From NCBI GenBank assembly GCA_017550105.1, contig JAFYLQ010000043.1, positions 1-41,354 on the forward strand: a DNA stretch of 41,354 nucleotides, read 5' to 3'. The notes under the pieces were generated by a model, which saw only the letters and a program-made list of their open reading frames with translations, did no database searches and was not told where the DNA came from. The DNA is from Clostridia bacterium (GTDB lineage Bacteria; Bacillota; Clostridia; Oscillospirales; Acutalibacteraceae). Positions within the stretch are counted from its first letter, which is position 1, and every line of letters begins with the position of its first letter. Positions 1,142 to 20,960 of the stretch are shown one piece after another. The position numbers and the translations under genes are program-made.

Positions 1142-1420
1142 GAAAGAAAACTCTTTACTTTTGTATCTAATGTTGATTCACTTGATTGGAAAAAGCTTTC
1201 TGTTGATGAAATGTATAGCCGAGTAACAAGTAAGGTGCAAAACGGGTCAATTGTTTTATTCCATAACGGAGTCGAAAACACACCGGAAGCACTTGATAAA
1301 ATCCTTACAAAATTAAAAACCGACGGCTACGAATTCGTAACCGTCAGTGAGCTTATTTGTTGGGATAATTATGAGATTGACCATATGGGCAAGCAGTATT
1401 GTGTTCATGATACGCAATAA
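1142..1420 (+). pseudogene. Polysaccharide deacetylase, C-terminal fragment
   Basis: The reading frame is open from 1142 and homology begins at about 1163 (VSNVDSLDWKKLSVDEMY). It continues through VQNGSIVLFHNGVENTPEAL and DGYEFVTVSEL to the stop at 1418. These are the last motifs of the NodB-fold carbohydrate esterase 4 family (PdaA/PgdA-like), including the LFHNG block that carries a conserved His. The N-terminal two thirds, with the catalytic Asp and the metal-binding HxxxH, are missing. Upstream sequence is the AT tract and not a deacetylase frame, so this is a truncated gene. A second, even shorter copy of the same 3' end lies at 1781-1862. Confidence 0.75.
1309..1345 (-). terminator. 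Terminator hairpin within the deacetylase remnant
   Basis: On the minus strand the 24-nt segment 1322-1345 folds into a near-perfect hairpin (GACGGTTACGAA against TTCGTAGCCGTC, one G-U pair). It is followed by GGTTTTTAATTTT. It lies 8 nt downstream of the stop of the leftward 67-aa ORF (1353-1556) and could end that transcript. The same bases encode DGYEFVTV of the deacetylase on the plus strand. Confidence 0.5.
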
Positions 1421-1556
1421 AAACATCTTCAGTATTCAATATTGCATTCTCCAATATTTCAACGCATTTTTTATCCGTACATTTTTCGGAAACCTCGTAA
1501 ATTGCTTCACAAAGTATGCCAAACATTTCCCTATACATTTCTATTTCGTTTTTCAA
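1353..1556 (-). CDS. Small protein of unknown function, 67 aa
   Basis: On the minus strand TTG at 1556 follows TTTTAGGAG (AGGAG at 1564-1568) at 7-nt spacing, which is the best-supported start. The product has a helical, Cys-containing body: EMYREMFGILCEAIYEVSEK, then a CTDKKC motif and an amphipathic helix around LENAILNTEDVF. The last about 20 residues are read antisense through the deacetylase fragment, so the C-terminus may be a product of rearrangement. It lies immediately downstream of a structured-RNA/terminator unit (1570-1763), and the terminator T-run abuts its ribosome binding site, so expression would need readthrough. I do not recognise the family. Confidence 0.4.
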   Translation of the reverse strand: MKNEIEMYREMFGILCEAIYEVSEKCTDKKCVEILENAILNTEDVFIAYHEHNTACPYGQSHNYPNK

Positions 1557-12049: not shown

Positions 12050-13078
12050 TTATATTGAATCAGCAATGTCAAGAATAAGCTTTTCGGTCTTTTCCCAGCC
12101 AAGGCAGGGGTCAGTAATGGACTTACCGTATACACCGTCACCTATCTTCTGGGCACCATCCTCAAGGTAGCTTTCAATCATAAAGCCTTTAACAATCTTT
12201 TTGATGTCGTCATTATGAGCACGGCTGTAAAGCACGTCCTTAACAATACGGATTTGCTCAAGATACTTTTTGCCCGAGTTTGCGTGGTTTGCATCAACAA
12301 TACAGGCGGGATTTTTAAGCCCCGACTTTGCATAAGCATCGCTGAGATTCTGCAAATCCTCATAATGGTAGTTGGAAATATTGTGTCCGTCGCGGTCAAC
12401 GTAGCCACGCATAATGGCGTGAGCGTAGGGGTTACCCTCGCTTTCAACCTCCCAACCACGGTAAATGAAGGTGTGACTGCTCTGGGCGGCTGTTATCGAG
12501 TTCATCATAACCGAAAGGTCACCGCCCGTGGGGTTTTTCATACCAACGGGTACCTCTATACCGCTTGAAACAAGGCGATGCTCCTGATTTTCAACGGAAC
12601 GTGCACCGATTGCCACGTAAGAAAGCAAATCGGAAAGGTAACGGTAGTTTGCGGGATAAAGCATTTCATCCGCACAGGAGAAGCCGTATTCCTTAAGCGC
12701 ACACATATGAAGGTCACGTATAGCAACAATGCCGTGAAGCATATCGGGCTTTTCATTAGGGTCGGGCTGATGAAGCATACCCTTGTAGCCCGAGCCCGTT
12801 GTTCGGGGCTTACCTGTATAAATTCTGGGTACGATTACGATTTTATCCTTAACCTTTTCACGAATCTCTGCAAGACGGGAAATATACTCAAGAACAGGCT
12901 CCTTTGAGTCTGCCGAACAAGGTCCGATTATAAGCAAAAGCTTGTCAGATTCGCCTGCAAAAACCCTTCTTATTTCTTCATCGTTTTTTGCTTTTTGCTC
13001 TGCCATCCGAAGGGTAAGAGGATATTGCTCCTTGATATCCATAGGAATGGGGAGTTTTCTTTTGAAGTTCATTGCCAT
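12050..13078 (-). CDS. aroG: 3-deoxy-7-phosphoheptulonate synthase (DAHP synthase, class I)
   Basis: A 342-aa enzyme that condenses PEP and erythrose-4-phosphate, the entry step of the shikimate pathway. Visible class I alpha motifs are LLIIGPCSADS, PRIYTGKPRTTGSGYKG, IGARSVENQEHR, PVGMKNPTGGD and IVDANHANSGKK. No fused chorismate mutase or ACT domain is present. The best start is ATG 13078, 7 nt after GGAGAG; a TTG at 13093 would lie upstream of that site. It is the last gene of the leftward aro operon, 16 nt after aroA. The symbol follows the E. coli AroG/F/H class; feedback specificity cannot be read from sequence. Confidence 0.93.
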   Translation of the reverse strand: MAMNFKRKLPIPMDIKEQYPLTLRMAEQKAKNDEEIRRVFAGESDKLLLIIGPCSADSKEPVLEYISRLAEIREKVKDKIVIVPRIYTGKPRTTGSGYKGMLHQPDPNEKPDMLHGIVAIRDLHMCALKEYGFSCADEMLYPANYRYLSDLLSYVAIGARSVENQEHRLVSSGIEVPVGMKNPTGGDLSVMMNSITAAQSSHTFIYRGWEVESEGNPYAHAIMRGYVDRDGHNISNYHYEDLQNLSDAYAKSGLKNPACIVDANHANSGKKYLEQIRIVKDVLYSRAHNDDIKKIVKGFMIESYLEDGAQKIGDGVYGKSITDPCLGWEKTEKLILDIADSI

Positions 13079-13093
13079 TTTAATTCTCTCCAA

Positions 13094-14299
13094 TCAAATG
13101 ATTTCATATTGTATTCCGAGGTTTTTAATATCCTTAAAAAAGTCGGGATAGCTTTTATTTACACATTGGGCATCCTTTAAAATGCCCCCTGTCACACTGC
13201 ACAGAACCGAAAAAGACATTGCTATTCTGTGATCGTTGTGACAATCAATTGCTTCTGTGGGCTTTTGAGGAACACAATCGGGGATAATTATGTAATCCTC
13301 CCCGAGTTCGACGTTGACACCGAATTTTTTAAACTCCTGTGCCATGGCGGTTCCCCTGTCACTCTCTTTAATTTTTAATCTGTCTGTGCCCGTGAGCTTT
13401 GCACCGTTTTTAAGCACGGCACAAACCATAAGCACGGGTCCTAAATCGGGATATTGTGAAATATCGAGCACGGGTGTGCCCTCACAAAGCTTTTTATAAA
13501 ACTCCTGACATATCTTGTCACCCTGAAAGCTCAGCGGGTTAAGTCCGTTAACGTTAACGCTTCCCCCTGCAAGATTAAAGGCTTCGAGGAATGCGGCATT
13601 TGACCAATCCCCCTCAACAGAAAGGTTGCAGCTTTTATACTTTTGATTTCCCTTTATATAAAAGCCCTGTTCGTTTTTTTCGATAATTACGCCAAATTTC
13701 TTCAAGGCATCAATTGTTATATCAACGTACGGTGCGCTTTGGAGTTCAGTTGTTAATATAATTTCACTGTCACCCTCAAGAAGGGGCAATGCGAACATCA
13801 ATCCTGTAAAAAACTGACTGCTTACGTCACCGGGTATTCTAAACACGCCGCTTTTAAGCTCACCGCCAACGTAAAGCCCGTTATCGTCAGAACGAAGATA
13901 ACAATCCTTCTCAGTAAAAAGCTCCTTATAGACGCTCTGAGGACGCTGCATAAGCCTTCCCCTGCCCGTAAACCTGCACTTTTGGGCAAAAAGCATACTA
14001 ACAGGTATCATAAATCGCAGGGTGCTTCCGCTTTCGTTACAGTCAAAGTCTTTTTGCGTTACCTTTTCCTTAAGTGAGGCACCCGTAACCCTTGCGGTGG
14101 TGCCGTTAATTTCAATTTCCGCACCAAGTGCCCTGAGGCAGGAAATGGTTGCCGTAATGTCGTCGTTTGTGCCGATATTATCAATTACACTTGCGCCCTC
14201 GGAAAGCCCTGCACAAATCAATAATCTGTGAGCAACGCTTTTTGAGGGTGGTGCGCTAACCTCACCCGCCGCTACGGAAGGTGTGATGCTTACGTTCAT
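13094..14299 (-). CDS. aroA: 3-phosphoshikimate 1-carboxyvinyltransferase (EPSP synthase)
   Basis: A 401-aa EPSP synthase that transfers enolpyruvyl from PEP to shikimate-3-phosphate. Motifs: PPSKSVAHRLLI near residue 17, CNESGSTLRFMIP, RPQSVYKEL, IPGDVSSQFFTGLM, LKIKESDRG and DCHNDHRIAMSF. At 401 aa it is slightly shorter than the usual 425-430. The ATG overlaps the aroQ stop by 4 bp, showing translational coupling within the aro operon. Confidence 0.95.
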   Translation of the reverse strand: MNVSITPSVAAGEVSAPPSKSVAHRLLICAGLSEGASVIDNIGTNDDITATISCLRALGAEIEINGTTARVTGASLKEKVTQKDFDCNESGSTLRFMIPVSMLFAQKCRFTGRGRLMQRPQSVYKELFTEKDCYLRSDDNGLYVGGELKSGVFRIPGDVSSQFFTGLMFALPLLEGDSEIILTTELQSAPYVDITIDALKKFGVIIEKNEQGFYIKGNQKYKSCNLSVEGDWSNAAFLEAFNLAGGSVNVNGLNPLSFQGDKICQEFYKKLCEGTPVLDISQYPDLGPVLMVCAVLKNGAKLTGTDRLKIKESDRGTAMAQEFKKFGVNVELGEDYIIIPDCVPQKPTEAIDCHNDHRIAMSFSVLCSVTGGILKDAQCVNKSYPDFFKDIKNLGIQYEII

Positions 14300-14730
14300 T
14301 CCTTCACCTTCTCAATAAGTGCATCAATTGCTTCAAGATATCCGTCGGTGCCCTTGCCCGTAATGGTTTTAAAGCAAGCCTGACGAACAAAACTGATTTG
14401 CCTGAAATCCTCACGGGTTGAAAGGTCTGAAATATGAACCTCAACCGTGGGAATGCCCACCGCCTTCACTGCATCTAAAATTGCTATGGAGGTATGGGTA
14501 TATGCACCGGGGTTTATAACTATTCCGTCAAAAACACCATAAGCAAACTGAATATTATCAACTAAATCGCCCTCGTGATTTGACTGATAACATTTAACCG
14601 CAACACCCTTTTTGTCGGCATAAGCTTCGATTTTTTCAATAAGTGTGTTATAGGTTTCCTTGCCGTAAATATCGGGCTCCCTTATGCCAAGCATATTAAG
14701 GTTAGGTCCGTTAATCACAAGAATATTCAT
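14296..14730 (-). CDS. aroQ: 3-dehydroquinate dehydratase, type II
   Basis: A 144-aa type II dehydroquinase that dehydrates 3-dehydroquinate to 3-dehydroshikimate. Family signatures are NGPNLNMLGIREPDIYG at the N-terminus (with the catalytic Tyr in the flexible loop), CYQSNHEGDLVD, VINPGAYTHTSIAILDA and EVHISDLSTRE. The length is typical. It overlaps the end of the aroE-aroK fusion by 20 bp and aroA by 4 bp. Confidence 0.96.
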   Translation of the reverse strand: MNILVINGPNLNMLGIREPDIYGKETYNTLIEKIEAYADKKGVAVKCYQSNHEGDLVDNIQFAYGVFDGIVINPGAYTHTSIAILDAVKAVGIPTVEVHISDLSTREDFRQISFVRQACFKTITGKGTDGYLEAIDALIEKVKE

Positions 14731-15961
14731 TGAAATCCGCCTCTATTCTTTCGGCAACCTCTTCCACCGTACCGCTACCGTCAATAACAACGTCTGCGCA
14801 CTCAATATAAAGGGAATAACGCTCGTCATAACGCTTTTTGAGTGCATCGGCATTGCTTGACAATGGTCTGTCAGAAGTAGCAACAAGGCATTCGAGAGGT
14901 CTGTTTATAAAATAAATTCTACCGTTTTCTTTTAAAATATCTGTATTTTCTTTGTTGAGAATCGCTCCGCCACCAGTTGCAATAACGTGATTATTACGTG
15001 ATGACACGGAGAAAATCTCTTTCTTTTCAATTTCCCTGAAGCCTTTTTCACCAACCTCAGAGAAAATCTCGGTTATGGGCTTGCCCTGTGATTCGACTAT
15101 CAAATCATCGGAATCCACAAAGGATTTTGAAAGTCTTTGAGCAAGAGCCCTTCCTACAGTTGATTTTCCGCTTCCGGGCATTCCCACAAGGACTATATTC
15201 ATTTTATCCTTATAAAGATTTCTAAAAATCTCTTCAACCTTTTCGTTATCCACGGGCTTATCAATAAATTTTTCGACGGCGTATGCCGCCTGAGACACAA
15301 GCATATAAAGACCGCCCGTAGCAGTAACGCCCAATGCTTTTGCATCACATATAAGCTTTGATTTTAAGGGATTATAAACTGCATCAAAAACCCCTTCAAG
15401 AGACGTGAACTGCTTTAAATCCACCGCAGAGCTACCGATATTCGGGAACATTCCGCAGGGAGTTGTGTTAATTATTATTTCAAAATCCGTGTATTTTTTA
15501 TAAACGTCCTCGTAGGTAACGTAGCCGTCCTTAGGGTTGCGGGATACCTTAACCACCGCTTTAGCTCCTAAAAACTCAGCAACAGCCACGGCGGTATTTG
15601 AGGTGCCGCCGCTACCTAAAACAAGAACCTTTTTACCCTTAAGGCTAACGTTCTCGCGTTCAATAAGTGCCTTCAAACCGTAAAAATCGGTGTTGTAGCC
15701 ATAAAGCTTACCGTCACGGTTTACCACCGTATTAACCGCATTTATACGCTTAGCCTCAAGTGAAATCTCGTCGAGATAGGGAATAATCTCCTGCTTATAA
15801 GGAATTGTAACGTTTATGGCTTTAAAGTCTTTTTTTATGAAAAAATCCTTAAGATTTTCTCTTTCAATTTCAAGAATCTTATAACTGTAATCCGCTAAAG
15901 CGTTGTGTATTTCCTTGGAAAAGCTGTGCTTTAAATGTTCGCCTATACATCCGTATTCCAT
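14711..15961 (-). CDS. Fused shikimate dehydrogenase - shikimate kinase
   Basis: A single 416-aa frame joins two enzymes. Residues 1 to about 245 are AroE: KHSFSKEIHN (shikimate binding), NVTIPYKQEI (catalytic Lys), NTDFYGL (catalytic Asp), the LGSGGTSNTA dinucleotide loop and NTTPCGMFP. Residues about 252-416 are AroK, a P-loop kinase: VLVGMPGSGKSTVGRAL, DSDDLIV, the FREIEKKE and TGGGA motifs, and the DRPL lid. The kinase part starts with Met (MNIVLVGM), so internal initiation is possible. The fusion catalyses successive steps, 3-dehydroshikimate to shikimate to shikimate-3-phosphate. Separate proteins (or the plant AroD-AroE fusion) are the usual arrangement. It starts 3 nt after aroC. Confidence 0.92.
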   Translation of the reverse strand: MEYGCIGEHLKHSFSKEIHNALADYSYKILEIERENLKDFFIKKDFKAINVTIPYKQEIIPYLDEISLEAKRINAVNTVVNRDGKLYGYNTDFYGLKALIERENVSLKGKKVLVLGSGGTSNTAVAVAEFLGAKAVVKVSRNPKDGYVTYEDVYKKYTDFEIIINTTPCGMFPNIGSSAVDLKQFTSLEGVFDAVYNPLKSKLICDAKALGVTATGGLYMLVSQAAYAVEKFIDKPVDNEKVEEIFRNLYKDKMNIVLVGMPGSGKSTVGRALAQRLSKSFVDSDDLIVESQGKPITEIFSEVGEKGFREIEKKEIFSVSSRNNHVIATGGGAILNKENTDILKENGRIYFINRPLECLVATSDRPLSSNADALKKRYDERYSLYIECADVVIDGSGTVEEVAERIEADFNEYSCD

Positions 15962-15964
15962 ACC

Positions 15965-17053
15965 TTACACCAACCAATCGGTGCCGAATTTTTGTGAAAG
16001 CAAATCACAAAGAGTAATGGCAACAATGCTATCAACAACCACTCTTGCACGGTGCACAATACAGGGGTCGTGTCTGCCTGTAACGTTTAAGGTAACATCC
16101 TCACCATTAATAAAATTAATGGTGCTCTGCTCCTTAGAAATAGAGGGGGTGGGTTTTACCGCACAACTGAAAAGAATGGGCATACCGTTTGAAATACCGC
16201 CGTTGATACCACCGTTATTATTGGTTTCGGCAGTAACGGCACCGTTTTCAAAGCGGAATTGGTCGTTCATTTGGCTACCGTACATATCGGCGCAGCCGAA
16301 GCCCGCACCGAACTCAACACCCTTTATAGCAGGAATTGAGAATAATGCGTGTGAGAGCATACTTTCAACGCTATCGAACCAAGGCTCACCCGCACCTGCA
16401 GGAACGCCTGTAACTACCGTTTCAAGAATACCGCCGACGCTATCCCCTGCTTCTGCCGCCTTTTCAATGGCAGAAATTATTTCAACCTTTGCATTATCAT
16501 TAAGCACGGGAAATTTGGCGTCTGACAAAAATTTTATATCAGCGTCATAGTCGGAAAAGCCGTCATCGGCTATTCCCGCACACTTTTTAATATGTGTGCC
16601 GATTAAAATGCCCTTCTTTTTTAATAAATCCAAGGCTATGGCACCACCTGCAACAAGTCCTGCAGTAATTCTGCCACTGAAATGTCCGCCACCGCGATAA
16701 TCCTCGGAGCCGTTGTATTTAACGTAAGCGGTATAATCCGCATGACCCGGACGTGCTTTACCGTAATTTTTGGAATAATCGCCCGACTTTGTGTTTTCAT
16801 TAGGGATAATAACACAAATGGGAGTGCCCGTTGTTTTGCCGTTAAACACACCGCTGACAATACTGAACCTGTCAGCCTCCTGCCTTGGCGTGGAAATTTT
16901 ACCAAAGGGACGGCGTAAATCAAGCTGATGGGTAATAAAGGCTTCGTCAACCTCAACACCTGCGGGAAGTCCGTCAATAACAGCACCTATGGCTTCGCCG
17001 TGGCTTTCACCAAAAAGGGTTACACTTACGTTATTACCGAAAGTATTTTTCAC
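15965..17053 (-). CDS. aroC: Chorismate synthase
   Basis: A 362-aa FMN-dependent enzyme that forms chorismate from EPSP by anti-1,4 elimination of phosphate. Signatures are TLFGESHGEAIGAVIDG, RPGHADYTAYVKY, DYRGGGHFSGRIT and the C-terminal RHDPCIVHRARVVVDSI. The length is typical. It starts at GTG 17053 after GGAGG. It sits 2 nt after aroB and 3 nt before aroE-aroK. Confidence 0.96.
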   Translation of the reverse strand: MKNTFGNNVSVTLFGESHGEAIGAVIDGLPAGVEVDEAFITHQLDLRRPFGKISTPRQEADRFSIVSGVFNGKTTGTPICVIIPNENTKSGDYSKNYGKARPGHADYTAYVKYNGSEDYRGGGHFSGRITAGLVAGGAIALDLLKKKGILIGTHIKKCAGIADDGFSDYDADIKFLSDAKFPVLNDNAKVEIISAIEKAAEAGDSVGGILETVVTGVPAGAGEPWFDSVESMLSHALFSIPAIKGVEFGAGFGCADMYGSQMNDQFRFENGAVTAETNNNGGINGGISNGMPILFSCAVKPTPSISKEQSTINFINGEDVTLNVTGRHDPCIVHRARVVVDSIVAITLCDLLSQKFGTDWLV

Positions 17054-18091: not shown

Positions 18092-19192
18092 TTAAATGGA
18101 CTGTTCTTTCGGATACCTGCCAACAAGCCTTACATTGGTACAAACGCTTGAAAGCTTTTCAATCATTGTTTTTTCTGCCTCGGAAGTAAGGTGACCCTCA
18201 CCCTCAAGGAAGAAATAATAGTTCCATATAACGTCCTTTGAAGGTCTACTCTTAAGCGCCTTAAGGTTGTAGCCGCATTCACCGAAAACGGATACCGCCT
18301 TACCGAGAGAGCCCGCCTCATCACGAACGGTAAATAGCACTATAAAGTTGTTAAGGTCGGGGGTATTATCACGAGGAATCCTTGAGAACACCGCAAAACG
18401 GGTTGTATTTGCACTATCCTTATTAATTTTGCGGTCAACAAGCTTCAAGCCGTATTCGTTGCCTGCCTCAAGACTGCAGATAACACCAAGGGTATCATCC
18501 TGCTTCTGAGCTACAATTGAAGCCGCAACGGCAGTATTAACGGTCTCTTCGGTGGCATAGCCCTTTTCCTCAATGAAATCGGCACACTGACCTAACGCCT
18601 GAGGATGGCTAAGAACCTTTTTAATGCTCCTGCTATCGGAATTCTGAGTACCGAACAAATGCTGTTCTATGCCCATATCATAAACACCGTTTATGTAAAG
18701 TGTGCCGAAATAGGTTAAATCCATAACTCTTGCAACGTCACCCTCGAAGCTGTTTTCAATGGGTAACACCGCAACGTCGCACTCACCCTTTTCAACCGCT
18801 TTGTATGCGGATTTGAAATCAGGATACGAGGTAGGTACACTGTCGGGAAAAATACGCTTAACCGCTATTTCGGCAAAGGCTCCCTTAACGCCCGAAAATG
18901 CCACACGGGTTCCGTCTATTATTTTGTGCTGATAGTCCTTAGAAAGCTTCATTGTATTTTTAAGGAAGCTTACGTAATATGAGCGGATTTCGTCACTTTC
19001 GACAAGGGCGCTGTTAGCTTCAATAAGTTGATTTTCCCTTACCATATCCTCAACGGGTATTCCGTTGACCTTCTTGTATTCGGCAACGTGAACCGCCGCC
19101 TTCATTCGTTCCTCGAAAAGTTTTGCAATTTCTTTATCAATTTTACTGATAGTATCCCTTGCCTCTCGGAATTTTTTATCGTAATCAGTCAT
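18092..19192 (-). CDS. pheA: Chorismate mutase / prephenate dehydratase (P-protein)
   Basis: A 366-aa bifunctional enzyme of phenylalanine synthesis. Residues about 1-90 are an AroQ-type chorismate mutase helix bundle (RDTISKIDKEIAKLFEERMKA). Residues about 95-280 are the prephenate dehydratase (FSGVKGAFAEIAV, VLPIENSFEGDVARVMDL, SHPQALGQC, NTTRFAVFSRI). The C-terminal ACT domain (FTVRDEAGSLGKAVSVF and LKSRPSKDVIWNYYFFLE) should bind Phe for feedback inhibition. The start is ATG 19192 after AGGATT, overlapping the aminotransferase stop by 8 bp. No prephenate dehydrogenase (tyrA) is in the operon. Confidence 0.94.
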   Translation of the reverse strand: MTDYDKKFREARDTISKIDKEIAKLFEERMKAAVHVAEYKKVNGIPVEDMVRENQLIEANSALVESDEIRSYYVSFLKNTMKLSKDYQHKIIDGTRVAFSGVKGAFAEIAVKRIFPDSVPTSYPDFKSAYKAVEKGECDVAVLPIENSFEGDVARVMDLTYFGTLYINGVYDMGIEQHLFGTQNSDSRSIKKVLSHPQALGQCADFIEEKGYATEETVNTAVAASIVAQKQDDTLGVICSLEAGNEYGLKLVDRKINKDSANTTRFAVFSRIPRDNTPDLNNFIVLFTVRDEAGSLGKAVSVFGECGYNLKALKSRPSKDVIWNYYFFLEGEGHLTSEAEKTMIEKLSSVCTNVRLVGRYPKEQSI

Positions 19193-20375
19193 TGTTGTAA
19201 TCCTCGTAAAGTTTCTTAAACGCATCAAGTGAACGCTTAATTAAATCTGTATCTACACAATAAGCAACCCTTACAAAGCCGGGACAACCGAAGCTGTCAC
19301 TGGGAACAAGAAGAAGCTCGAATTTTTTTGCTCTTTCGTAGAATTTGTATGCATCCTCATCAAGTGATTTTACAAACATATAAAATGCACCGTCGGGCTT
19401 GATAACCGTATAGCCGATATCCGTAAGACCATCATAGAGGATTTTTCTGTTTTCTTCGTATACGGATACGTCGGCGGTGTCGTTAAGGCACTCGGCAATT
19501 GTGTACTGCATAAGGCTCGGTGCACAAACGTAACCTAATGCACGACCTGAACCGCATATAGCCGCAAAAGCATCTGCACAATCCTTCATTGTGGGTGATA
19601 CGAATATATAACCTATTCGTTCACCGGGTAATGAAAGGGCTTTTGAATATGAATAGCACACGAAGGAGTTATCATAATAAGCGGGAATATATGCAACCTT
19701 TTCGCCTGTGAAAACAAGCTCTCTGTAAGGTTCATCGGCAATAAGGAAAATCGCTTTACCGTATTCTGCCTGCTTTTTATTAAGTAATTCTGCTAACTTA
19801 ATAATATCCTTTTCAGGAACAATAACACCCGAGGGATTGTTGGGTGAATTTATGATAATTGCCTTAGTATTGGGGTTAATGCTTTTCTCTAAAAGTTCAA
19901 AGTCAATCTGCAAATCGTCGTTTTTACAGCTAACGGGAACAAACTTAGCGCCCGACTGCTCAACAAACACCCTGTACTCAGGGAAGAAGGGAGCAAAAGC
20001 GATTACCTCGTCCCCCTCCTCTGCAATAGCGTTAAGTGTAATTGTAAGAGAAGCGGCGGCACCGCAGGTCATATAAATAAGGTTAGCGTTTGCTTCAACC
20101 TGAAATTTATTTTTGATATTTTCGGCAATAGCGGTTCTGACGTTCATATCACCTGCACCCGAGGTGTAGCCGTGAAGTGCCTCTGCAGGAGTTTCGGCAA
20201 TGAGTCTGTTCATAACGTCCGTTACCTTTTGGGGTGCAGGAACACTGGGATTGCCAAGGCTGAAATCAAATACGTTTTCGGCACCGATTTCGCTCTTACG
20301 AACTCTGCCGTATTCAAAGATTTCACGGATTACCGAGCTTTTTTTACCTAATTCTAACATTTTGGATGATAACAT
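19185..20375 (-). CDS. PLP-dependent aminotransferase (aromatic/aspartate type, class I)
   Basis: A 396-aa fold-type I aminotransferase. Visible features are DFSLGNPSVPAP at the N-terminus, the PLP-contacting FAPFFPEYRVF and NSPNNPSGV, LIADEPYRELVF and the Schiff-base Lys in CYSYSKALSLPGERIGY. As first gene of the Phe/chorismate operon, it most likely transaminates phenylpyruvate (and perhaps hydroxyphenylpyruvate) to the amino acid. Substrate range is an inference from context, because this subfamily is broad. It starts at ATG 20375 after TAGGAG, just downstream of the attenuator terminator (20401-20448). Confidence 0.88.
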   Translation of the reverse strand: MLSSKMLELGKKSSVIREIFEYGRVRKSEIGAENVFDFSLGNPSVPAPQKVTDVMNRLIAETPAEALHGYTSGAGDMNVRTAIAENIKNKFQVEANANLIYMTCGAAASLTITLNAIAEEGDEVIAFAPFFPEYRVFVEQSGAKFVPVSCKNDDLQIDFELLEKSINPNTKAIIINSPNNPSGVIVPEKDIIKLAELLNKKQAEYGKAIFLIADEPYRELVFTGEKVAYIPAYYDNSFVCYSYSKALSLPGERIGYIFVSPTMKDCADAFAAICGSGRALGYVCAPSLMQYTIAECLNDTADVSVYEENRKILYDGLTDIGYTVIKPDGAFYMFVKSLDEDAYKFYERAKKFELLLVPSDSFGCPGFVRVAYCVDTDLIKRSLDAFKKLYEDYNND

Positions 20376-20400: not shown

Positions 20401-20448
20401 AAAAAATCCGCAAACCGATATACTTTTTAAAGCATAGCAGAATGCGGA
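20401..20448 (-). terminator. Attenuator terminator of the aro/phe operon
   Basis: On the minus strand a hairpin with outer stem TCCGCA/TGCGGA (20443-20448 with 20407-20412) and inner stem TATGCTT/AAGTATA (20430-20436 with 20419-20425) is followed by TTTTTTATTT. It stands between the leader peptide and the first structural gene, the position of a transcription attenuator. Confidence 0.8.
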
Positions 20449-20472
20449 CTGGCTATATACAATTCGTTGCAA

Positions 20473-20547
20473 TTACTTGCATCTACGAGAAGCACACAGA
20501 CAATCCATAGTATAATAATAAAATCGTTCACTATAGCTATAAAACAT
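20473..20547 (-). CDS. pheL: Aromatic leader peptide (attenuator), 24 aa
   Basis: The minus-strand ATG at 20547 follows GAGAGGTG at 6-nt spacing. The 24-codon ORF begins MFYSYSERFYYY, so seven of the first twelve residues are Phe (2) or Tyr (5), including three consecutive TAT codons, and it ends at TAA. It is the first ORF after a near-consensus promoter and is followed by a terminator ahead of the aromatic biosynthesis genes. This is the arrangement of Phe/Tyr leader peptides such as pheL, where stalling at aromatic codons prevents terminator formation. A candidate antiterminator pairs GGATTG (20501-20506) with CAGTCC (20446-20451), which would disrupt the terminator stem. A small TGCAA/TTGCA hairpin spans the stop (20468-20481). 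The symbol is by analogy only. Confidence 0.8.
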   Translation of the reverse strand: MFYSYSERFYYYTMDCLCASRRCK

Positions 20548-20577
20548 CTGTTTCACCTCTCAAATCAAGATAGGCAC

Positions 20578-20606
20578 ATTTTACTCCTATGGTTTTTATT
20601 TGTCAA
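20578..20606 (-). promoter_or_regulatory. Promoter of the aro/phe operon
   Basis: On the minus strand a perfect -35 TTGACA (20601-20606), 17-nt spacer and -10 TAAAAT (20578-20583). The start site should be near 20571, about 24 nt before the leader peptide ATG. Confidence 0.85.
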
Positions 20607-20642: not shown

Positions 20643-20960
20643 TTATTTTTCCGCTTTTTCAACAATTTCTGCAAAGCCGTAAATAACGGCAGAAAGGAAT
20701 CTTGCAAGTACAATAAGTATAATAAGGCAGGTAATAATGGGAAGCACCAAAAGTGCAATAAGCTCGAAGCCAACGTATACGCCCAACACAACCGTGCCGA
20801 TACCTACTAACGTAAGAGCAAGGAAGATATTAATAACAAAAATCAAAATTGAAAAACGCTTTAAGGACGCAGAACAATTTCTGAAAAATTTGATTCCGTT
20901 ATCTTTTTTTGTTTCCTCTGCGGGAATTTCATTAACTGTTTCTTTAATATTTTCGCTCAT
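20643..20960 (-). CDS. Small two-helix membrane protein
   Basis: A 105-aa protein with a polar, acidic N-terminus (residues 1-35, ending in the basic CSASLKRF). Two long hydrophobic stretches follow (about 36-60 and 64-92: SILIFVINIFLALTLVGIG and ELIALLVLPIITCLIILIVLA), then a short charged tail. Both termini should face the cytoplasm. No family was recognised; the pattern resembles small uncharacterised Clostridial membrane proteins near DUF4282. It is the last gene of a three-gene operon after a HAD hydrolase and a lipoprotein (15-nt gap), upstream of the aro promoter. Confidence 0.65.
   Translation of the reverse strand: MSENIKETVNEIPAEETKKDNGIKFFRNCSASLKRFSILIFVINIFLALTLVGIGTVVLGVYVGFELIALLVLPIITCLIILIVLARFLSAVIYGFAEIVEKAEK

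Follow-up and report, generated by a model that had tools for sequence, protein, structure and literature searches.

A candidate leader-peptide attenuator with Phe and Tyr control codons before aromatic amino acid operons of Clostridia

Introduction

In the pheA and pheST attenuators of gamma-proteobacteria, a leader open reading frame (ORF) with control codons, three alternative helices (1:2, 2:3 and 3:4) and an intrinsic terminator are located before the phe gene. In Firmicutes, accounts of amino acid control usually centre on T-boxes, and we know of no Tyr-reading attenuator from the classical literature. Phenylalanine attenuators are named, with pheST as the example, in the available text of PMC1262725. 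The nearest published proposal, as far as the available text of PMC8632094 goes, is uORFC-13-1, a short ORF before aroF in Acholeplasma that contains at least one Phe codon, is accompanied by a terminator and was proposed to sense Phe incorporation. For S. aureus, the available text of PMC5794164 describes a Leu-rich attenuator peptide of the ilv-leu operon, with promoter-activity and mutant data.

Here we describe a leader found in the window, as we call the whole stretch of DNA analysed (41,354 nucleotides), which is contig C47 of a 2.0-Mb genome (G000) that is 84% complete. Judged from sequence comparison and modelled folding, this leader is very probably a ribosome-mediated transcription attenuator that responds to the levels of charged tRNA-Phe and tRNA-Tyr. 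Going by published descriptions, it has control codons, alternative helices and a terminator in common with the pheA and pheST attenuators. Unlike these, it mixes Phe and Tyr codons, its operon includes most of the common pathway, its Shine-Dalgarno sequence (SD) lies in segment 1 and coevolves with its partner, its hosts also use T-boxes, and no Rfam family matches it. With uORFC-13-1, again compared by description, it shares a short ORF with Phe codons and a terminator before a DAHP synthase gene; the 24 examples of uORFC-13-1 come from Acholeplasma and environmental sequences only, and the available text describes neither Tyr codons nor a 2:3 pairing for them. In S. aureus, according to the available text, ribosome-mediated attenuation is likewise proposed for an amino acid operon of a Firmicute, so attenuator peptides have a precedent there; unlike the Clostridia leader, that system concerns branched-chain amino acids, Bacilli and other genes. 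T-box leaders (RF00230) likewise sense tRNA charging upstream of amino acid genes, and G000 has them too, one being located before pheST; in contrast to them, the Clostridia leader would sense through a translated ORF. The open-access literature, to which the search extended (subscription papers and supplements were outside its scope), yielded no description of such leaders in Clostridia. The kind of mechanism is a known one; the leader family, its reading of Phe together with Tyr, its breadth and its tyrA companion are apparently undescribed.

Architecture of the leader

The elements of the leader are all located on the minus strand:

20578..20606, minus strand: promoter TTGACA-17-TAAAAT, matching 11 of 12 consensus positions
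20606-20601, minus strand: TTGACA -35 box, followed after a 17-nt spacer by TAAAAT (20583-20578)
20554..20561, minus strand: SD of the leader ORF, GAGAGGTG, read from the sequence; it is the 5' part of segment 1
20473..20547, minus strand: leader ORF of 24 codons plus stop, MFYSYSERFYYYTMDCLCASRRCK, read from the sequence and kept in 14 of 15 same-genus aminotransferase loci
20512..20544, minus strand: control codons 2-12 (F Y S Y S E R F Y Y Y), assigned from F/Y enrichment and ribosome-masked folding
20487..20561, minus strand: 1:2 hairpin (anti-antiterminator) over the leader SD, start and codons, from the minimum free energy fold
20496..20506, minus strand: 5' arm of the antiterminator (segment 2), GGATTGTCTGT, within the ORF, from covariation in 33 leaders
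20446..20456, minus strand: 3' arm of the antiterminator (segment 3), ATAGCCAGTCC, overlapping the terminator, from covariation in 33 leaders
20405..20450, minus strand: intrinsic terminator hairpin (3:4), outer 8 bp AGTCCGCA/TGCGGATT, from covariation in 33 leaders
20450-20443 and 20412-20405, minus strand: terminator arms, read from the sequence
20401..20406, minus strand: T6 tract of the terminator, read from the sequence

An earlier note on this DNA had pointed out the TTGACA-17-TAAAAT promoter, the SD-preceded ORF of 24 codons, the seven aromatic codons among its first 12 (2 Phe and 5 Tyr) and the terminator with T6, all of which were confirmed from the sequence. It had also proposed a pairing of GGATTG (20506-20501) with CAGTCC (20451-20446) that excludes the terminator. 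The pairing itself stands, as it covaries, but its length of six pairs has to be revised: it extends over 11 positions (20506-20496 with 20456-20446) with one U-C mismatch, which amounts to about 10 pairs. As in an attenuator, the ORF is short, has its own ribosome binding site and is rich in codons for the products of the pathway. Between the ORF and the first gene there is an intrinsic terminator, consisting of a covarying hairpin and T6. This hairpin went unflagged in a simple terminator scan (0 found), we think because its loop exceeds the length that the scan allows.

The RNA of the window leader has a fold more stable than that of 200 out of 200 shuffles (z -4.29). Seven or more F/Y codons among the 11 that follow the start were reached by six of 20,000 base-shuffled stop-free ORFs. 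When the intergenic region was dinucleotide-shuffled 2,000 times, no SD-preceded ORF of equal aromatic content arose. These shuffles and the codon content across 66 leaders rule out that the ORF arose by chance. Just upstream of the leader, at 20643-20960 of the window (minus strand), a membrane-like protein of 105 aa is encoded, for which no NCBIfam match was obtained; in several members of the genus, similar coding ends are located upstream of the leader.

The operon behind the leader

Behind the terminator, eight genes are found in the following order:

19185..20375, minus strand: PLP aminotransferase (NF005305), first structural gene, ATG at 20375, presumably with an aromatic role
18092..19228, minus strand: pheA, chorismate mutase-prephenate dehydratase, with a provisional start codon
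17056..18063, minus strand: aroB (TIGR01357)
15965..17053, minus strand: aroC (TIGR00033)
14711..15961, minus strand: aroE-aroK fusion of 416 aa, both domains scoring below the NCBIfam cut-offs
14296..14730, minus strand: aroQ, type II dehydroquinase (TIGR01088)
13094..14299, minus strand: aroA, EPSP synthase (TIGR01356, just below cut-off)
12050..13093, minus strand: DAHP synthase, aroFGH type (TIGR00034)

In the aroE-aroK ORF, the shikimate dehydrogenase is formed by residues 3-251 and the shikimate kinase by residues from about 250 to 412. The genes are tightly packed, with overlaps of at most 44 bases and gaps of at most 28 bases, and end at 12050; this packing suggests that all eight share one transcript under the control of the leader. 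The next ORF on the minus strand, which has no NCBIfam match, starts 384 bases past the DAHP synthase gene, and a simple scan revealed no terminator-like hairpin between 11468 and 12049. The relatives of the aminotransferase, among the 80 matches listed, are mostly from metagenome-assembled genomes titled Clostridia, Oscillospiraceae or Lachnospiraceae, with identities of at most 65%, and many come from herbivore guts. The host had been taken for a Clostridium relative; going by these titles it is one of the Clostridia, and closeness to Clostridium itself was not borne out.

Conservation inside the genus

The genus set contains 22 genomes, including the window's own (L and G numbers are used as labels of loci and genomes). 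The aminotransferase is present in 15 of them, and in 14 of these 15 the leader is located upstream of the operon (L002-L015), the window's own included in both counts. Loss of the ORF or of its aromatic codons in close relatives, which had been named in advance as a result that would speak against attenuation, is not what 14 of these 15 loci show. All 14 leaders are preceded by TTGACA, a 17-nt spacer and a hexamer with four to six of the six TATAAT positions. The aminotransferase without a leader is that of G021 (locus L016), which is GC-rich and where pheA is not the next gene. The broader covariance model R2 (see below) matches 15 of the 22 genomes at E < 1e-6; the fifteenth, G003, has no aminotransferase match and its leader precedes pheA-aroB. 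In L008, at about 1215-1500 (plus strand), a few hundred extra bases separate the leader terminator from the aminotransferase start.

Codon content of the leaders

In the reading frame of 66 distinct leaders, 41.5% of codons 1-16 are Phe or Tyr codons, compared with 13.4% and 14.3% in the other two frames and an average of 18.4% in base shuffles of the same leaders. Both amino acids are present in each of the 66, but Trp is not found among their 1494 residues, though chorismate also feeds Trp. The aromatic codons persist while the nucleotides change: in alignment A3, described below, columns have a mean identity of 54%. The block CGATTTTATTA is near-invariant in the genus, and many of the other leaders carry other strings of F/Y codons instead.

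A U/A-rich stretch of this kind might be kept for the sake of the RNA, as an unpaired linker or as a protein or sRNA site, and encode Phe and Tyr as a by-product. This would fit with the invariance of CGATTT-TTA in the 14 genus leaders and with the position of the stretch within the 1:2 hairpin, but it is made very improbable by the excess being that of a single frame, by the leaders outside the genus, in which Phe and Tyr stay while the nucleotides change, and by the rarity of other U/A-rich codons (13 TTA plus TTG and 24 ATT/ATA, beside 438 F/Y codons in the 66 leaders). The content of the tyrA leaders, Tyr-only or mixed, also largely follows the genes downstream.

Arrest peptides exist, and the leader peptide could itself act in such a way, its nascent chain stalling on free Phe, Tyr or another ligand instead of being slowed in decoding. 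The tail DCLCA, which is common in the genus, might be seen as the conserved part of such a peptide. However, this tail drifts to DCPC, GCPS or DRLY in other genera, and its conservation is accounted for because the same letters spell segment 2 of the antiterminator. Furthermore, F and Y occur in no fixed order, as would suit codon reading better than a fixed arrest peptide. Action of the peptide itself is for these reasons unlikely to a high degree, and reading of the codons is the preferred explanation.

Covariation and folding of the alternative helices

Covariation was analysed in A3, a MAFFT alignment of 33 leaders that was fitted to no structure and that leaves out L060, L073 and L075, which are too divergent, and L058 and L062, whose peptides repeat those of L034 and L041. 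At the 11 positions of the antiterminator, 86.5% of the cells are paired, compared with 24-44% in slid controls. Double changes are seen in 18 cells, compared with 7.0 in shuffles, none of the 500 reaching 18, and 7 of its 11 pairs changed on both sides. The shuffle p-values take the sequences as unrelated, and among the loci there are near-duplicates (L034/L058 and L041/L062). In further pair types the antiterminator does not stand out, with 179 of 500 shuffles equalling it. When it is slid, as many as 8 double-change pairs and 15 such cells appear, with few of the cells paired. Within the 14 genus leaders no double changes are found in the antiterminator, so the support from covariation comes from other genera. 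The 8-bp terminator stem has 97.7% of its cells paired and 9 double-change cells, compared with 1.3 in shuffles (0 of 500 as high); its further pair types are matched by 145 of 500 shuffles. The consensus fold of the 14 genus leaders, with both hairpins, contains double changes in 4 of 26 pairs.

The pairing of the SD and start region with segment 2 was evaluated in 52 of the 66 leaders, the 14 others being omitted as the pattern missed their antiterminator arm. On average, the pairing of SD/start with the leader's own segment 2 has an energy of -17.5 kcal/mol, 6.3 better than with swapped partners. The own pairing is better than the swapped mean in 49 of the 52 leaders, and better than 95% of the swaps in 32; in L029, L152 and L168 it is no better than the swapped mean. 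From these comparisons it appears that the leader's own SD and start pair with the antiterminator strand, and that the alternative helices compete for segments 2 and 3.

The consequences of a stalled ribosome were modelled by masking the ribosome, and 10 nt beyond it, while the RNA was folded as far as segment 4; with 8 or 12 nt, the boundary shifts by about one codon. In the window leader, the antiterminator is predicted to form with a probability of 1.00 when any of codons 2-11 occupies the A site; the value is 0.34 for codon 12 and 0.00 for codons 13-22. Codon 12 is the last Tyr of YYY, and a stall there already masks part of segment 2. The mean over the 33 leaders is 0.71 at aromatic A-site codons and 0.31 elsewhere. 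In silico, from covariation and masked folding, the antiterminator thus excludes the terminator and is freed by a stall at the control codons. Without a ribosome, in equilibrium folding before segment 4 is made, the antiterminator probability is 0.59 in the window and 0.74 on average in the 33 leaders; with a ribosome at the stop codon, the values are 0.26 and 0.52, respectively.

Equilibrium folding does not reproduce strong default termination, which counts against the model; such termination would have to come from the order of folding, with 1:2 forming first. Weak termination by default would also fit a constitutive leader whose terminator sets a fixed level of expression. A covarying and mutually exclusive antiterminator and codons matched to the pathway would be unneeded in that case, and a constitutive leader has only a slight probability compared with an attenuating one.

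Proposed mechanism of attenuation

That the locus is a Phe/Tyr leader-peptide attenuator had been put forward in the earlier note, and the reading is supported by the conserved ORF, the persistence of its aromatic codons and the covarying alternative pairing, which extends across 33 leaders. It builds on the ORF, the codon bias, the three mutually exclusive helices and the gene association, which sequence and comparison establish. Transcription would start a few bases past the -10 box, and a ribosome would begin to translate the leader with its 24 codons. Under a shortage of Phe or Tyr, it would stall with an aromatic codon in its A site and hold segment 1 open, allowing segment 2 (GGAUUGUCUGU, in the ORF) to pair with segment 3 (AUAGCCAGUCC) as the latter emerges. 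With segment 3 engaged, no terminator would form and the aminotransferase-pheA-aroBC-aroEK-aroQ-aroA-DAHP synthase operon, presumably with all eight of its genes, would be transcribed. When both Phe and Tyr are plentiful, the ribosome would cover segment 2, or finish so that segment 1 pairs with segment 2. In either case, with segment 2 covered or paired, the terminator would form and transcription would end before the first gene. Once re-formed, the 1:2 hairpin would also hide the site at which ribosomes bind the leader, so that a transcript may be read no more than once.

Distribution of the leader outside the genus

With a covariance model built from the 14 genus leaders (R1), 13 of 200 genomes of the family were matched at E <= 0.01. 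Ten of these lie outside the genus, and all 10 loci contain an F/Y leader before an aminotransferase, pheA or DAHP synthase gene. At E <= 0.01, the broader model R2, made from 33 leaders, has matches in 38 of 398 genomes of the family, 45 of 394 of the order and 13 of 291 of the class, where the weakest matches may be due to chance. An F/Y leader was present in 50 out of 50 R2 loci examined outside the genus, these being the best-scoring of the family and order matches; it precedes an aminotransferase in 24, pheA in 15 and DAHP synthase in 11. R2 was trained on F/Y leaders and its retrieval is therefore biased towards U/A-rich stretches. In L148, the leader ORF was taken from L036, which is the same place in the same genome, and the leader of L029 has a GTG start codon. 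In other families of the class, leaders are located before DAHP synthase (L195 and L196) and pheA (L197); the class-level count of examined R2 loci leaves out L199-L205, which have E-values of 0.0026 or weaker.

A set independent of the RNA models consists of 119 loci fetched by the aminotransferase protein and scored by a strict leader rule. The rule was passed by 21 of 53 loci in which pheA or aro genes follow the aminotransferase and by 0 of 61 in which they do not; five loci were assigned to neither class. Among the 32 of 53 that fail, at least L008, L012, L015, L034, L037, L043, L044, L047, L058 and L075 are misses of the rule, so that 21 of 53 is a lower bound, because the rule overlooks at least these ten true leaders. 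In the aminotransferase-pheA/aro loci L038, L040, L042, L046 and L048-L051, no such leader was recognised. Alignment of the upstream regions of homologous operons, which had been suggested as a check, thus reveals a Phe/Tyr-rich ORF conserved in frame in many genera and several families.

In another order, at about 1514-1680 of L198 (plus strand), an F/Y leader, MKRRFFYYYYYYFSPAVECCAANI, and a terminator-like hairpin are located before the gene for a TrpX-family ABC substrate-binding protein. The protein matches NF041285 below cut-off, and the nearest PDB sequence is 6hni. This hints that the uptake of aromatic amino acids may also be under the control of an F/Y leader.

A second leader family before tyrA

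The tyrA gene (PDH_N) is present in 15 of the 22 genus genomes, and no PDH_N match was obtained in G000. A Tyr branch missing from G000 was considered and set aside: an assembly gap is likelier than loss, because 15 of 22 genomes have tyrA, because 7 of the 12 tyrA loci scanned in the genus (L215, L219, L220, L221, L224, L225 and L227) have a 23S rRNA gene ending nearby, and because the assembly is 84% complete.

A second family of leaders is located directly before tyrA in 9 of the 15 genus tyrA loci (L215, L218, L219, L220, L221, L223, L224, L225 and L227). These tyrA-alone leaders, for example MKTNFAVTYYYYYYLVK, contain a TTGAC promoter-like sequence, an SD, a terminator and a run of five or six Tyr codons. 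Three of the tyrA leaders are positioned as follows:

L215, 2026-2169, minus strand: tyrA leader
L218, 1277-1422, plus strand: tyrA leader
L220, 227-374, plus strand: tyrA leader

In three further genus loci (L222, L228 and L229), a related leader precedes a gene for a B. subtilis-type DAHP synthase, which is followed by tyrA; in the genus tyrA loci L216, L217 and L226 no such leader was found. A covariance model of the nine tyrA-alone leaders (R3) matches 13 of 228 family genomes at E <= 0.01, and did not reveal any leader of this type in G000. Outside the genus there are eight R3 loci with a leader. In six of them it is located before DAHP synthase-tyrA (L232, L234, L236, L238, L242 and L243), and in L241 it is located before DAHP synthase, the rest of the locus being cut off. 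In L239 (1654-2781, plus strand), a mixed Phe/Tyr leader is followed by tyrA fused to a B. subtilis-type DAHP synthase-like N-terminal stretch, and then by aroB. The matches in L238, L239, L241, L242 and L243 have weak E-values (3.6e-4 to 0.0072), yet leader and gene are present. The R3 matches L233, L235, L237 and L240 were dropped for lack of an F/Y leader, and L244 as the other strand of L237.

The six-codon control block contains 52 Tyr and no Phe codons in the nine tyrA-alone leaders, compared with 33 Tyr and 22 Phe codons in the ten leaders before a DAHP synthase gene; that of L239, with 3 Tyr and 3 Phe, was counted apart from both groups. Lineage is a confounder of this contrast between Tyr-only and mixed blocks, yet it holds inside the genus (9 against 3 loci). 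Outside the block, Phe is present in eight of the nine tyrA-alone leaders, mostly as one residue at codon 4 or 5; three also have it just after the block. The tyrA leaders are a natural test of codon reading, because their codon mix largely tracks the genes downstream. The antiterminator of this family has a mean own pairing of -16.4, which is 4.7 better than swapped; the own pairing exceeds the swapped mean in 20 of 20 leaders, but exceeds 95% of the swaps in only 7 of the 20.

Coexistence with T-boxes

A T-box, or another riboswitch that binds a ligand or tRNA, might control the operon, with the ORF being incidental. T-boxes are indeed common in these bacteria: RF00230 has matches in all 22 genus genomes and nine in G000, seven of which are over the gathering score. 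The genes behind the T-boxes of G000 are pheST, trpB, thrS, alaS, a leuA-like gene, a PaaK-like ligase and AMP-forming ligases. The T-box upstream of pheS-pheT is in locus L206 (G000:C60:20800-22900). When the window was compared with Rfam 15 using cmscan, nothing was found at gathering score, in agreement with the absence of T-box features remarked upon before; in particular RF00230 has no match at the locus, and three far sub-threshold matches lie around the leader at E up to 10. Nor was any Rfam 15 match over the leader found in 20 representative loci of both leader families, where the five Rfam matches lie off the leaders (an L10 leader, rRNA, two tRNAs and Gut-1), and a separate scan of 20 loci gave no T-box. 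On these covariance scans, a T-box or other Rfam element at the leader was rejected. The conserved helices moreover cross the ORF, and conservation tracks the reading frame, which makes a riboswitch very improbable as the regulator of the operon.

The idea that Firmicutes usually employ T-boxes for such genes fits G000, with its nine matches and one of them before pheST, and T-boxes and a leader peptide in one genome mean that both systems coexist. In G000, two devices apparently sense the charging of tRNA-Phe, a T-box upstream of pheST and a leader peptide upstream of the biosynthetic genes. On balance, we lean towards a wider picture in which two families of leader peptides provide Clostridia of this group with a codon-coded aromatic regulon. 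The first would consist of mixed Phe/Tyr leaders located before an operon that begins with the aminotransferase, pheA or DAHP synthase; the ribosome binding site of such a leader would form the first strand of the switch, and a pioneer ribosome would read each transcript once. The second would be Tyr-only before tyrA alone and mixed where genes of the common pathway follow. With the pheST T-box beside them, Phe charging would be read in two ways in one cell. Independently of this wider picture, a large set of probable leader-peptide attenuators serves the aromatic pathway in gut Clostridia beside T-boxes in the same genome, and this coexistence allows one to ask why a leader peptide or a T-box is chosen for the same amino acid. 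The covariance models of both leader families could be used to annotate more genomes.

Some of the T-boxes of G000 are located before unusual targets: a PaaK-like CoA ligase and AMP-forming acyl-CoA ligases (L208, L207 and L209, on contigs C8, C42 and C10, respectively). One of these AMP-forming acyl-CoA ligases contains about 225 extra N-terminal residues before the ligase domain.
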